Shown: piece by piece, positions 14,135 through 21,633 of the stretch
Position numbering within the stretch: the stretch's first letter is position 1
Layout of the letters: every line of letters starts with the position of its first letter
Origin: Candidatus Methylopumilus universalis
Lineage (GTDB): Bacteria; Pseudomonadota; Gammaproteobacteria; Burkholderiales; Methylophilaceae
Direction: 5' to 3'
Assembly: GCA_945878605.1 (NCBI GenBank)
Contig: CAMCTR010000002.1
Location: 1 to 38,388 of the forward strand
DNA: 38,388 nucleotides
Translations under genes and position numbers: made by a program
The notes under the pieces: generated by a model
Told to the model about the DNA's origin: nothing
The model's input: the letters and a program-made list of their open reading frames with translations, nothing else
Databases searched by the model: none

Positions 14135-15457
14135 ATGGCTAAAAATGTTGTTGTTATCGGCACCCAATGGGGCGATGAAGGTAAAGGGAAAATTGTTGAT
14201 TGGTTAACCGACCATGCGCAAGGCGTGGTGCGCTTTCAAGGTGGTCATAATGCTGGTCATACGTTGGTTGTAGGTCAGGGTGATGCGCAGCGTGTTTATA
14301 AGCTTAACTTAGTGCCATCTGGCATTGTTCGACCAGGAGTGAATTGCTATATTGGCAACGGTGTTGTTTTAGATGCCGGACATTTACTCAAAGAGATTAA
14401 AGACCTTGAAAATGGCGGGTTGGAAGTTAAAAACCGTCTAAAAGTGAGTCCAGGTTGCCCATTAATTTTGGATTATCACGTTCGACTAGATGTGGCACGT
14501 GAATTAAAAAGGGGCGCGGATAGGAAAATTGGCACAACTGGTAAGGGCATTGGCCCAACTTATGAAGATAAGGTAGCTAGACGTGCCTTACGCCTTTATG
14601 ACTTGTTTTATCCAGAACAATTTACTGAAAAACTCCGAGATGTTTTGGATTACCACAACTTTGTCCTTACAAAATATCTAGGGGCAGAAGCGGTTGATTT
14701 TAATCAACAACTTGATTCTGCATTAGCTAAAGCTGAGCATATCAAACCTATGGTCGCAGATATTTCTGCTGCCTTGTATGAAGCTAATAAAGTAGGTCAA
14801 AACCTCTTGTTTGAGGGCGCACAAGGTACATTGCTAGACGTTGATCATGGAACATATCCTTATGTAACATCAAGCAACTGTGTGTCTGGACAAGCATCCG
14901 CAGGCACTGGTGTTGGTCCAAGTATGTTGCATTATGTCTTGGGGATTACTAAAGCTTACACAACCCGCGTTGGTGGTGGCCCGTTCCCAAGTGAATTGGA
15001 TATTGATTCTGAAGGGGCCCCAGGCACACAAATGTCCGTAAAGGGCCGGGAAATTGGCACAGTCACTAAACGTAAACGTCGTTGTGGTTGGTTTGATGCT
15101 GCGGCATTACGTCGTTCTGCACGCATCAATGGTTTGTCAGGTCTATGTATTACCAAGCTAGATGTGCTTGATGGCATTTCAGAGTTACGTATTTGCACTG
15201 GTTATCAGCTTGATGGTAAAACCATTGATATGTTGCCAGTTGGTTCAGATGACGTTGCGCGTTGCCAACCAATTTACGAAACATTGCTAGGCTGGACTGA
15301 AAATACCTTTGGCGTTAGCCGCTGGGAAGACTTGCCAGTCAACGCACGTAACTATCTAAAACGCCTAGAAACGTTATGTGAGGTACCTGTAGATATCGTT
15401 TCAACGGGTCCTGAACGCGACGAAACTATCTTGTTGCGTCATCCATTTGGGCTTTAA
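14135..15457 (+). CDS. purA: Adenylosuccinate synthetase
   Basis: [41 protein letters not shown] and later PurA motifs. Confidence 0.98.
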
Positions 15458-16005
15458 TGAAGCCTGTTGAAAAACAGCGCATGGCGTGGGCTTTAACGGG
15501 CTCAGGCCACTATTTACGTGAATGCATCGCTATTTTCGATAAGCTAGAAGATGTCGATTTATTTCTAAGTAAAGCGGCCGCTGAAATACTCCAGCAATAC
15601 GGCTACAAACATAATGCAGGCAAAGTCTATCAAGACAAAACTGCAAGCTCTGTGCCTGTTGAGCTTTTTTATCATGGGGCTTATCACAGCGTGGTAATTG
15701 CACCTACAACCTCTAATACTGTCGCCAAAATGGTTTATGGTATCTCAGATAATTTAGTCACCAATATCTTTGCGCAAGCTGGTAAGTGCCGTGTGCCGAG
15801 TATTGTGTTTGCTTGCGATACAGAAGATGAGATGGAGTCTGAGGCACCACGGGACAATTTGGTAAAAGTTTATCCGCGTCGTATTGATTTGGAAAATACA
15901 GCCAAACTCAAAACATTTGAAGAAACAACAGTGGTCGAGAATATGCAGCAGCTCGATACTGCCATTCAGGCAAGATTAGCATGTCTGAAAGCCTCCTCTT
16001 TTTAA
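15457..16005 (+). CDS. dmrB: Flavoprotein resembling archaeal-type dihydromethanopterin reductase (DmrB)
   Basis: MAWALTGSGHYLRECIAIFDKL...VVIAPTTSNTVAKMVYGISDNLVTNIFAQAGKCRVPSIVFACDTE: flavoprotein fold with cysteine-rich tail. Overlaps the purA stop (TAATG) and is followed by H4MPT-type genes. Confidence 0.75.
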   Translation: MKPVEKQRMAWALTGSGHYLRECIAIFDKLEDVDLFLSKAAAEILQQYGYKHNAGKVYQDKTASSVPVELFYHGAYHSVVIAPTTSNTVAKMVYGISDNLVTNIFAQAGKCRVPSIVFACDTEDEMESEAPRDNLVKVYPRRIDLENTAKLKTFEETTVVENMQQLDTAIQARLACLKASSF

Positions 16006-17375
16006 CAGGTAAGTTGGCCGAAAAGAGCTTGCGTCAAGTATTAGCAAGCATGCAGCCAGCTCCTTTCAAGTATCGCATTACTCAAATTGGCGTATCCGTT
16101 GCCGCACTGATGACACCTGAATTGATTGCTAGACGCTTGCCAGAGGTTGGTGATGCGAGCAAAGTAATTGTGCCTGGTTTGTGTTGTGGCGATTTAACGA
16201 TGCTTGAAGATAAATATGGCGTTCCTGTAGCGCGAGGTCCTTTGGACCTGAAGGATCTACCACAATATTTCGGTCGTGGAGAAAAATTGCCTGACTTATC
16301 CAAATATGATGTCAAAATCTTCGCTGAAATCGTCGATGCGCCGCAATTAAGTATTGAGGCCATATTGGCGCGCGCTCAATATTTTCAAGCGCAGGGTGCT
16401 AATGTCATTGATCTAGGCTGTTTGCCAAACACGCCTTTCCCACACCTAGCTGACGCAATTAAAACGCTGAAAGCCGCTGGCGTTAATGTGAGCGTTGATT
16501 CTTTAAACGTGGATGATTTATTGCTTGCAGGTAAGTCGGGCGCGGATTATCTTCTGAGCCTCACTGAGCATACCTTGTGGATTGCAGAGGAGGTTAGTGC
16601 GACCCCTGTATTGATCCCTTCAAAACTAGGCAGTTTGCCATCCTTATACCGCGCTATCGAAGGTATGCAGAAAATTTCCAAGCCATTCATTGCTGATGCT
16701 ATCCTTGACCCGATTCCTTTTGGATTTACTGAGTCCATCGTTCGTTATCAAAAGCTACGTAAACGTTATCCTGATATTCAAATCATGATGGGCGTGGGTA
16801 ATATTACAGAGCTTACCGATGCCGACACCACAGGCATTAATGCCATTTTATTTGGCATTATTAGTGAATTAAAGATCAATGCGGTATTAGCAACCTCTGT
16901 TAGCCCACATGCGATTAATGCAGTTGCTGAAGCGGATGTGGCAAGGCGCATGATGTTTGCCGCACGTGAAGAAAATCGCTTGCCTCGCGATTACACCCTA
17001 GGCTTATTAGGTTTGCATGACCGTAGGCCTTTCACTTATACGCTAGAAGAAATCGCAGAATTCGCAGCTCAAATCAAAGACCCGAGCTTTAGAGTTCAAA
17101 TTAGCAAAGAGGGTATGCATATCTACAATCGTGATGGCCTATTTAGCGACATTGATCCATTTAAGTTATATTCGCATTTAAAGGTTGAAGGTGATGCTTC
17201 TCATGCTTTCTATTTAGGCGTGGAGCTAGCAAGGGCACAAATCGCATGGCAACTTAAAAAGCGCTACATCCAAGATGAAGAGCTAACATGGGGCGTAAAC
17301 ACCCACGAGAGTAGTCAAGAGGGAAAAACGGCTCATCGTGAAGCTTCAATGAAGGAAAAGAAGCAAAAGCCATGA
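15981..17375 (+). CDS. DUF6513 / dihydropteroate synthase-like protein, probable tetrahydromethanopterin biosynthesis
   Basis: LLFLTGKLAEKSLRQVLASM... N-terminal domain, then a DHPS-like TIM-barrel segment (ANVIDLGCLPNTPFPHLADAIKTLKAAGVNVSVDSLNVDDLLLA). 25-nt overlap with the upstream gene. Confidence 0.8.
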   Translation: MSESLLFLTGKLAEKSLRQVLASMQPAPFKYRITQIGVSVAALMTPELIARRLPEVGDASKVIVPGLCCGDLTMLEDKYGVPVARGPLDLKDLPQYFGRGEKLPDLSKYDVKIFAEIVDAPQLSIEAILARAQYFQAQGANVIDLGCLPNTPFPHLADAIKTLKAAGVNVSVDSLNVDDLLLAGKSGADYLLSLTEHTLWIAEEVSATPVLIPSKLGSLPSLYRAIEGMQKISKPFIADAILDPIPFGFTESIVRYQKLRKRYPDIQIMMGVGNITELTDADTTGINAILFGIISELKINAVLATSVSPHAINAVAEADVARRMMFAAREENRLPRDYTLGLLGLHDRRPFTYTLEEIAEFAAQIKDPSFRVQISKEGMHIYNRDGLFSDIDPFKLYSHLKVEGDASHAFYLGVELARAQIAWQLKKRYIQDEELTWGVNTHESSQEGKTAHREASMKEKKQKP

Positions 17376-17968
17376 GTATCCTTAATAAGAGCTCAGAAAA
17401 AATTAACGAAATTATCCTCATCACAGAGTGTGAAGATGGATCAACATACATCGCGCCATTTGGGGTGCGTGAACGTGATGGCTTAATCTTAATCGCGCCG
17501 TTTAGGCCGTCCGTCAGCTTGGATAATTTATTGAGTGGGCGACGTGCAACCATTAATACAACGGATGATGTACGCGTGTTCGCTGGCGCATTAACTGACA
17601 GACGCCATTGGAAGGTACAAGATAAAGCAGGGGCTATGGTGCTTGAATTCGCATTAGCGTATAAAACGCTTAAGCTTGAAAAAGTGGAAGATGATATTCA
17701 ACGCCCTCAACTTTATTTTAAAGTTATTAGAGAAGAGATGCTTAAACCTTTCCAAGGATACAACCGCGCGCAAGCAGCAGTGCTGGAGTTGTGCGTTCTT
17801 GTAAGTCGGTTAAATATGTTACCGATAGAAAAAATCAGTTCCGAAATGGATTATCTCAGTATTGTCATTGAAAAAACAGCAGGGGATATAGAACAGGAGG
17901 CTTGGAGTTGGTTAGTTGAAGCAGTTGAAAACCATCGCGCTCAATTATCGAGGGGTGATATTGCTTAA
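17372..17968 (+). CDS. DUF447 family protein (C1-cofactor cluster, function uncertain)
   Basis: INEIILITECEDGSTYIAPFGVRERDGLILIAPFRPSVSLDNLLSGRRATINTTDDVRVFAGAL fits the DUF447 pattern. ATGA overlap with the upstream gene. Confidence 0.75.
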   Translation: MSILNKSSEKINEIILITECEDGSTYIAPFGVRERDGLILIAPFRPSVSLDNLLSGRRATINTTDDVRVFAGALTDRRHWKVQDKAGAMVLEFALAYKTLKLEKVEDDIQRPQLYFKVIREEMLKPFQGYNRAQAAVLELCVLVSRLNMLPIEKISSEMDYLSIVIEKTAGDIEQEAWSWLVEAVENHRAQLSRGDIA

Positions 17969-18650
17969 GGCGCCATCGTCAATCAAGATGTTGGCAAGCG
18001 TCACAAGCGTCGAGGAGGCGCTAATGGTGCTTGATGCTGGCATAGATATGATAGACCTCAAAAATCCAGTTGAAGGGACACTAGGTGCGCTTGATCATGC
18101 TTTGGTGAAAGATATTGTGCAGGCGGTTAATCACCGAAGTTCGGTAAGCGCGACGATTGGTGATTTGCCGATGCAGGCTAGCTTAATAGTCGATGCAACG
18201 AAGTCAATGCTTGATACAAGCGTTGATATTGTAAAGATTGGATTTTTTGGTCAATCGCATCACGGGCAATGTTTGGATGCTTTGCGAACTTTGACACGGG
18301 GAACTAAGCTCATTGCAGTCTTGTTCGCTGATGAAAGTCCTGATTTAAGATTGTTGCCCGTGATCGCTCAAGCTGGTTTTTATGGCGTGATGCTCGACAC
18401 TGCAAATAAAAGTCATGGCCATTTGCAAACGCATTTAAATTTAAACTCTCTGAATCGCTTTGTGATTATGGCTAAAAATCTAGGTCTTGAGGCTGGCTTA
18501 GCTGGCTCACTTCAGATGAGCCACATTCCAGATTTGTTAAAAACCCACCCATCCTATTTGGGTTTTAGAGCAGCCCTATGTGGAAATGCTCAAAGAACTT
18601 CTCATTTAGAGCCGGATAAAGTTAGAGCGATTAAAAAAATGTTTTCTTGA
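17961..18650 (+). CDS. (5-formylfuran-3-yl)methyl phosphate synthase-like protein (MfnB / DUF556)
   Basis: MLASVTSVEEALMVLDAGIDMIDLKNPVEGTLGALDHALVKDIVQAV...VDIVKIGFF matches MfnB. The tracked ATG (17916) lies 53 nt inside DUF447. TTG at 17961 with GAGGGG RBS, or ATG at 17988, is more plausible. Confidence 0.82.
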   Translation: MLKAPSSIKMLASVTSVEEALMVLDAGIDMIDLKNPVEGTLGALDHALVKDIVQAVNHRSSVSATIGDLPMQASLIVDATKSMLDTSVDIVKIGFFGQSHHGQCLDALRTLTRGTKLIAVLFADESPDLRLLPVIAQAGFYGVMLDTANKSHGHLQTHLNLNSLNRFVIMAKNLGLEAGLAGSLQMSHIPDLLKTHPSYLGFRAALCGNAQRTSHLEPDKVRAIKKMFS

Positions 18651-18731
18651 GAATATTTTTTGTTAATCCTGTATTAGATTGAAAATTAAATACCAGGTGT
18701 AGTATTGGCATTTATTTAATTTATTAATAAG

Positions 18732-18890
18732 GAGGTTGAAGAAGGTCGTCTGAAAGCAGTTGGTAAAGGTGAGTCTGAGACGATTGTTGCTTGTGACGGA
18801 GTTAAAGGTAAAAAACTGATCGTATGTTTACAGCCTAATCGTCGTGTGGTTTTATCTGCTGAAAAACTACGTGAAAGCGCTTGTAAATAA
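18732..18890 (+). pseudogene. Remnant of an OmpA-family outer-membrane protein gene (C-terminal domain end only)
   Basis: The open frame after an in-frame TAA (18717-18719) reads FINKEVEEGRLKAVGKGESETIVACDGVKGKKLIVCLQPNRRVVLSAEKLRESACK*, matching the OmpA C-terminal signature (G-GES-P...C...LI-CL-PNRRV). No usable ATG/GTG and no N-terminal part. Confidence 0.75.
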
Positions 18891-18909
18891 CTTATAATAT
18901 GATTTAATT

Positions 18910-18937
18910 AAAGCCCCGCTTAGTCGGGGCTTTTTTT
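18910..18937 (+). terminator. Rho-independent terminator
   Basis: AAAGCCCCG-cttagt-CGGGGCTTT followed by a T-run. Confidence 0.92.
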
Positions 18938-18948
18938 ATGCGAAAAAT

Positions 18949-20301
18949 ATGACTGATACCATTAAAATAAATGTAGATTTGATGATTGAAGCTAAGTGGC
19001 TTGTGCCTGTGACTCCAAGCAATAAAGTGTTGGAACAACAGACCGTAGTTGTTCATCAAGGCTGCATTATTGAGCTTGCTCCAATGCCGATAGCAAGAGC
19101 ACGATATTCAGCGAATAAGACGGTAGTGCTAGATGAGCACGTGTTAATTCCAGGATTGATTAACCTGCATACCCACGCTGGGATGACGTTGATGCGTGGC
19201 CTGGCTGACGATATTCCTTTGATGCCTTGGTTGCAAAATCACATTTGGCCCGCTGAGCAGCAAATCGTTTCTGAAAAGTTTGTGCACGATAGCGCCTTAT
19301 TCGGCTGTGCTGAAATGCTGTCTGGTGGAGTAACTTGCTTTAATGATATGTATTTTTTTCCTCAAGCAACTGCAGAGGCTGTTTTGCAAGCCGGGATGCG
19401 TGCCCAGCTTGGCTTGGTGGTTTTGGAGTTTCCAACCAATTATGCCAATAATGCAGACGACTATCTTGAAAAGGGCTTATTGATTCGCGACGCTTGGCGA
19501 GGCAATCCATTGTTATCAGCCAGTTTGGCGCCTCATGCTCCTTATACCGTTTCGGATGCGACCTTTGAGAAAGTGATTACCTATGCGGAACAACTAGGTT
19601 TAGGTGTTCATACCCACCTTCATGAAACAAAAGTTGAAATCGCTGAGAGCATTGAAAAGCACGGTGTGCGTCCAATTAGACGCATGGCTAATTTGGGACT
19701 TTTGGGACCTAGTTTTACTGCTGCACATTGCGTGCAAATCAATAATGAAGATTTTGATTTATTAAGTGCACATGGCGCGCATGTAGCCCATTGCCCAAGC
19801 TCTAACGCAAAGCTAGCAAGTGGTATTGCACCAATTAATCAAATGTTAAACGCTGAAATTAATGTGGGATTGGGCACGGATGGCGCTGCAAGCAACAATC
19901 GTCAAGATATGTTCACGGAAATGCGCCTAGCTGCTTTATTGTCCAAAGCCGTTACAGAAGATGCAACAAGTATTCCAGCGGTGCAAGCTTTAGAAATGGC
20001 AACTATCAATGGCGCTAGGGCATTGGGTTTAGATCATCAAATCGGCTCAATCGAAGTTGGTAAGCTTGCTGATTTAACTGCTGTACGCATTGCCGATGTG
20101 GAAACTTTACCTTGCTTCGACCCTCTGTCTCATTTGATATACGCTTGCGGCCGAGAGCATGTCAGTCATGTTTGGGTGGCGGGAGATTTGCGTTTTGAGC
20201 GCTCAAGCCAACAAGCGGGCTTGTATGCCAATATTGAACCTAACGAATTAAAGGAAATTGCATTGCTATGGAAATCGAAATTGAATCAACACAAAGCGTG
20301 A
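18949..20301 (+). CDS. TRZ/ATZ family amidohydrolase (MtaD-like, 5'-methylthioadenosine/SAH deaminase family)
   Basis: [75 protein letters not shown]. Confidence 0.92.
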
Positions 20302-20990
20302 ACGTCGATCCAGCAGAGCTTGAAAAGTTCGCAAGCCTAGCGCACCGTTGGTGGGATAAAACCAGTGAATTTAAGCCTTTGCATGCTATCAATCCCCTAC
20401 GATTAAAATTTATTGATGATCTGGTTGGCTTAGACGGCAAGCGTGTGCTAGATGTTGGCTGTGGCGGTGGCATCCTCTCCGAGTCTATGGCGGAGAAGGG
20501 CGCTGATGTCACAGGGATCGATTTGGGCGATAAAGCACTTAAAGTGGCTAAGTTGCACCAATTGGAATCAGGCTCAAAAGTTGATTACCGTTTGGTTTCG
20601 GTTGAGCATTTAGCCAAAGAACAGCCAGCTAGCTTTGATGTGGTGACTTGTATGGAAATGCTGGAGCACGTGCCAGATCCTGAAGCGATCGTTCGTGCTT
20701 GCGCGCAATTAGTGAAGCCGGGTGGTTCGGTCTTTTTTTCTACCATCAATCGCAATCCTAAATCTTATCTATTTGCAGTGATTGGCGCAGAATATATACT
20801 CAACATGCTGCCAAAGGGCACGCATGAGTATCAAAAGTTTATTAAACCATCAGAGCTGTCATCGTGGGCACGTTATGTCGGCCTAAATGTCGGTCAGCTC
20901 AAAGGCATGGGATATAACCCATTAATAGACCATTATTCATTGGTCGACAACGTTTCTGTCAATTACCTCATTCATACACTCAAGTCTTAA
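20268..20990 (+). CDS. ubiG: Ubiquinone biosynthesis O-methyltransferase UbiG
   Basis: [30 protein letters not shown]...[28 protein letters not shown]. Confidence 0.96.
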
Positions 20991-20991
20991 T

Positions 20992-21633
20992 ATGATTCTA
21001 TTTGATCTTGATGGAACGCTTGTTGATACCGCGCCAGACCTTGGTTATGCGCTCAATTTGCAACGCGAGCATCATGGCCTAGCGCATTTGCCTATGGAGG
21101 CAATTCGTCCTTTCGCATCCCACGGCTCAAAGGGATTACTAAATATCGGTTTCGATTTAACTCCTGACGATGAAACTTTTGAGGCGATGCGGGTTGAATA
21201 TTTAGATTTATACGACCAAGTATTTACGAGATCACCAGTGCTATTTGATGGGGTGACTGAACTGCTTGCAGGACTCCAAAAACTTGATATTAGATGGGGT
21301 GTAGTGACGAATAAACCTAGACGTTTTGCCGCGCCATTGATCGAGTCAATGCACCTTAGCAACTCAATGACATGCTTGGTCTGTGGTGATGATGCGCCAT
21401 TACCTAAGCCAGCGCCCGACACCTTATTTATGGCATGTGAACAGTCCTTGGTAAAGCCTGAGCATTGTTTATATGTGGGAGATGCAGAGCGAGATGTTAA
21501 GGCGGGTAATGCTGCAGGGATGAAAACAGTTGTAGCCTTGTGGGGCTACCTTGATGTTACTGATAGACCAATGAATTGGGGTGCTAATTTTGCAATTAAT
21601 TACCCATCAGAACTCATTGCTTTGATGGACTAA
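20992..21633 (+). CDS. gph: Phosphoglycolate phosphatase (HAD family)
   Basis: ILFDLDGTLVDTAPDLGYALN; ...VVTNKP...; YVGDAERDVKAGNAAGMKTV; follows ubiG. Confidence 0.93.
   Translation: MILFDLDGTLVDTAPDLGYALNLQREHHGLAHLPMEAIRPFASHGSKGLLNIGFDLTPDDETFEAMRVEYLDLYDQVFTRSPVLFDGVTELLAGLQKLDIRWGVVTNKPRRFAAPLIESMHLSNSMTCLVCGDDAPLPKPAPDTLFMACEQSLVKPEHCLYVGDAERDVKAGNAAGMKTVVALWGYLDVTDRPMNWGANFAINYPSELIALMD

Follow-up and report, generated by a model that had tools for sequence, protein, structure and literature searches.

A probable pseudogene remnant of ompA between mfnB and mtaD in Candidatus Methylopumilus

The window, that is, the whole 38,388-nt stretch of DNA analysed here, belongs to a draft genome of 1.4 Mb (81% complete, 146 contigs). 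Between the end of an mfnB-like gene (18650) and the start of an amidohydrolase gene (18949) lies a 298-nt gap, which holds the ompA scar described in this study (Table 1). Upstream of the gap, four consecutive genes at 15457-18650 encode a flavoprotein (PF02441), a DUF6513/pterin-binding-like protein, a DUF447 protein and MfnB (PF04476); these look like a tetrahydromethanopterin-related biosynthesis cluster.

Table 1. Features in and around the ompA scar (positions are those of the window)
Feature	Position	Strand	Basis
mfnB-like gene (4-HFC-P synthase, PF04476), adjoining the lost ompA on its 5' side	17961-18650	+	Pfam E=9e-67; same neighbour beside intact ompA in relatives
Remnant of the ompA promoter/5' leader	18669-18704	+	36-nt alignment to the G004 leader, weaker to G001
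Zone of the deletion junction, with AAGGAGG at 18729-18735	18705-18735	+	Comparison with G001, G004 and G008
Last 51 codons and stop of ompA-1, startless	18735-18890	+	tblastn E=2e-15 to G004 OmpA; 33-37 of 51 residues identical to syntenic OmpA
Conserved AATATGATTTAATT block, possible extended -10 of an mtaD promoter	18896-18909	+	12-14 nt identity in G002, G003, G007 and G009; promoter role putative
Former intrinsic terminator of ompA, 9-bp hairpin	18910-18933	+	Near-identical hairpin 3' of intact ompA in G004 and G008
Amidohydrolase gene (mtaD-like)	18949-20301	+	Pfam; order conserved in Betaproteobacteria
ubiG	20268-20990		Downstream of the mtaD-like gene
gph	20992-21633		Downstream of ubiG

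The frame of the scar, VEEGRL...ESACK, is open at 18735-18887 and ends at a TAA stop (18888-18890). Counted from 18735 it has 51 codons, and it is open further back to 18720, which makes 56 codons. The intact OmpA of the congener G004, used as a tblastn query, matched 18720-18887 with its residues 313-368 of 368 (61% identity, E=2e-15), a similarity far beyond chance. In G004 numbering, the 3' part of the scar picks up at codon 318 of 368. From the preceding stop up to the OmpA motif, this frame contains no ATG, GTG or TTG start. When the 51-residue tail alone was searched against Pfam, PF00691 was not matched, and a SAV0927-like match was sub-threshold and was taken as chance. A functional OmpA requires a signal peptide, a beta-barrel and a complete C-terminal domain, and of about 368 codons, the final 51 are all that is left here. 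The interval combines homology to OmpA (PF13505 barrel plus PF00691), an intact orthologue at the same locus in relatives, and loss of the start, the signal peptide and the barrel, as is typical of a pseudogene remnant. We consider it very probable that the interval is a remnant of ompA-1, deleted internally in this lineage. An earlier note on this DNA, made from its letters alone, had described an AAGGAGG sequence followed, without a start codon, by about 50 codons from the end of the OmpA C-terminal domain and then by a strong terminator; the positions of the motif and of the startless OmpA end are both borne out, and the terminator corresponds to the hairpin in Table 1.

The same locus was compared in relatives. 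A complete ompA of 360-369 codons lies at the exact site of the scar in the congeners G004 and G008 and in the family member G016, and in Methylotenera a complete ompA is located between mfnB and mtaD-ubiG-gph. Many Betaproteobacteria, Methylotenera among them, have ompA adjoining mtaD and/or ubiG-gph. Our family sample consisted of 41 genomes, 40 of them with mtaD, and adjacency was counted from match coordinates; in 33 of the 40, an OmpA match of full or almost full length was located directly upstream of mtaD. The seven without an adjacent ompA are the scar genome, G005, G012, G022, G024, G156 and G158, and all of these genomes are 1.3-1.8 Mb. The proposal of the earlier note that the fragment marks the ancestral position of ompA is thus supported by complete genes exactly there in close and distant relatives. 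The note had also placed ompA just upstream of ubiG-gph; this order is found in Betaproteobacteria, but the amidohydrolase gene (mtaD) sits between the scar and ubiG. Compared with the betaproteobacterial ompA-(mtaD)-ubiG-gph order, the flanks and the order are the same here, and ompA is cut down to its tail.

Whether the genome carries another full ompA had been raised earlier, and one was found. A tblastn search with G004 OmpA detected an intact paralogue, ompA-2, on another contig (C22) of the same genome, 50% identical to the G004 protein. Besides the scar, this search detected ompA-2 and a Pal-like gene in the assembly; no further piece of ompA-1, and in particular not its missing N-terminal half, was found. 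Counterparts of ompA-2 occur in G001, G002, G003, G004 and G005 with common neighbours, for example a two-component system or lysC-alaS. An IS3-type transposase-like fragment (L001, 1614-2054; integrase domain recognised by eye) is located about 180 bp upstream of ompA-2 on C22. In two other congeners, G007 (97% complete) and G009 (92% complete), one Pal-like match each and no full OmpA protein were found, so these genomes may lack both ompA copies.

The presence of an OmpA paralogue next to a transposase fragment could be taken to mean that the scar is the 3' end of ompA-2, duplicated and inserted between mfnB and mtaD. The tail, however, shares 33-37 of its 51 residues with the syntenic OmpA (ompA-1) of the congeners and of G016 but 28-29 with ompA-2, and the position of the scar is the ancestral one. 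In a tree of OmpA proteins, the scar groups with ompA-1, apart from ompA-2, and the separating branches have 98-100% support. An origin from ompA-2 was dropped on this tree, and we regard it as hardly conceivable. It could also be supposed that the assembly is collapsed or chimeric, the assembler having skipped about 1 kb of an ompA that is complete in the true genome, since the draft is fragmented and ompA paralogues can mislead assemblers. Against this, the genome's own ompA-2 shares only 28 of 51 residues with the scar and is so unlike it that there is no long repeat to collapse on. Moreover, no orphan N-terminal piece of ompA-1 was found in the assembly, ompA-1 is independently absent or broken in sister genomes, and drift is seen in the -10 of the ompA promoter. 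Assembly collapse at the scar is therefore unlikely, and we give this explanation only a slim chance.

The region upstream of the tail retains traces of the ompA leader. The alignment of the scar leader to the G004 leader was equalled by 2 of 2000 shuffles and the weak match to the G001 leader by 59 of 2000; no match to the leaders of G008 and G016 was seen. The TTGAAA that had been read as a -35-like element is present at 18679-18684, and the leader alignment takes in the TTGnAA -35. A weak TAGTAT -10-like sequence lies at about 18700, and the -10 and its spacing have drifted. The alignment of this leader with the ompA leaders of G004 and, more weakly, G001 argues for the loss of about 950-1000 bp by internal deletion, reaching from the 5' UTR into the C-terminal codons, as the earlier note had suggested. 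AAGG is found both in the Shine-Dalgarno of G001 (AAAAGGAAT) and in its SKGV codons (TCTAAGGGTGTT). Because AAGG could derive from either side, the junction can be placed only to about 18705-18735. The same coincidence makes a deletion via this short match plausible, although four bases are no proof.

The age of the deletion was estimated from substitutions in the tail. Comparisons of the tail gave dN of 0.21-0.25 and dS of about 1.0-1.8, like those of intact genes; in the G001 pseudogene, dN was up to 0.38. Between the scar and G001, dS was 1.1 and dN was 0.21, which indicates constraint on the tail during most of the period after the split and disfavours neutral decay over the whole branch. 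Intact-like dN against a dS of about 1 or more suggests that the deletion of ompA-1 is probably recent. A recent loss had earlier been proposed from the intact frame, and the mostly synonymous divergence of the tail agrees with it. The intact frame by itself is weak evidence, because 34% of 51-codon frames are still stop-free at 0.2 neutral changes per site.

Different states of ompA-1 were observed within the genus. The gene is whole in G004 and G008. In G001 it is a pseudogene, in which a tryptophan codon reads TGA and the barrel/linker has suffered an in-frame deletion; this decaying copy is at C2:209425-211203 (L053). The scar genome (G000) has the 51-codon tail; the final few codons are left in G003 and G007, only a 14-nt block (AATATGCTTTAATT) in G002 and G009, and no recognisable trace in G005. 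A tree of nine flanking genes gave the pairs G000+G001 (support 73), G002+G009 (81), G003+G007 (67) and G004+G005 (99). If ompA-1 was never regained, this tree implies about four or five losses. The first lesion may have been shared by G000 and G001, as the part of ompA concerned is gone in G000.

A conserved block lies just after the ompA stop. The block AATATGnTTTAATT (also TATGATTTAAT) is identical over 12-14 nt in G002, G003, G007 and G009, where the rest of ompA-1 is lost, and nearly so in others, a count anchored on the block itself. With one mismatch allowed, it occurs once in the window, and 0.34 occurrences are expected by chance. The block was retained through every loss of ompA-1 except that in G005, where it is absent, and several genomes that keep it have a decayed terminator hairpin. 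The block may be the mtaD promoter, with a candidate extended -10 (TGA-TTTAAT, 18900-18908) and a possible -35 (TTGTAA, 18881-18886) over the ompA stop. Tentatively, and with rather less than even confidence, we suggest that the 3' end of ompA-1 goes last in several lineages because the mtaD-ubiG-gph promoter is embedded there and selection on it sets where deletions stop.

Retention of the open frame, the terminator and a weak promoter, with mostly synonymous changes in the tail, would also fit a functional stand-alone small protein or a small RNA derived from the 3' end. A start codon is absent, however, and relatives show the whole gene, a pseudogene or nothing, never the fragment alone; a conserved stand-alone small gene, which the earlier note had named as speaking against a deletion, was thus not found among them. 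For a small RNA, all Rfam matches were sub-threshold. The best, STnc100 (RF02076), scored 29 bits against a gathering threshold of 47, and an equal match at the 3' end of the intact G004 ompA indicates that the match follows the terminator. We consider a stand-alone function very improbable.

The preferred reading, a remnant of ompA-1, can be outlined as follows. The ancestor would have had a complete ompA-1 between mfnB and mtaD. One internal deletion, with breakpoints perhaps at the short AAGG matches of the Shine-Dalgarno and the SKGV codons, would have taken out the start codon together with the signal peptide, the barrel, the linker and the greater part of the OmpA domain; the 5' leader would thereby have been fused to the final ~51 codons, followed by the terminator. 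The remnant is predicted to yield no OmpA protein. The loss was probably tolerable because ompA-2 persists, and it would be one of repeated losses of ompA-1 in members of the family with small genomes. The element after the stop was perhaps kept because it carries the mtaD-ubiG-gph promoter.

Bacterial pseudogenes in reducing genomes are likewise truncated and startless at a conserved site, with intermediates in sister species. Here, by contrast, the lineage seems to live freely in freshwater plankton and not as a host-restricted symbiont, and a single genus displays the stages. For the Methylophilaceae (Ca. Methylopumilus, OM43 and Ca. Methylosemipumilus), streamlining has been described as involving small genomes and removal of paralogues (PMC6794327), and small genome size, paralogue removal and the family are all in common with the scar genome. 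In the parts of the main text of that paper drawn on here, OmpA or outer membrane proteins are not mentioned, and the loss of ompA-1 seems undescribed there. The ompA scar is a gene remnant, a well-known type of feature, and reveals no new mechanism; it is the kind of feature that automatic annotation would miss. It offers a well-resolved snapshot of how a major outer-membrane protein gene is lost step by step in a freshwater lineage with small genomes: intact, damaged, truncated and erased states of ompA-1 are seen together at one site in one genus.
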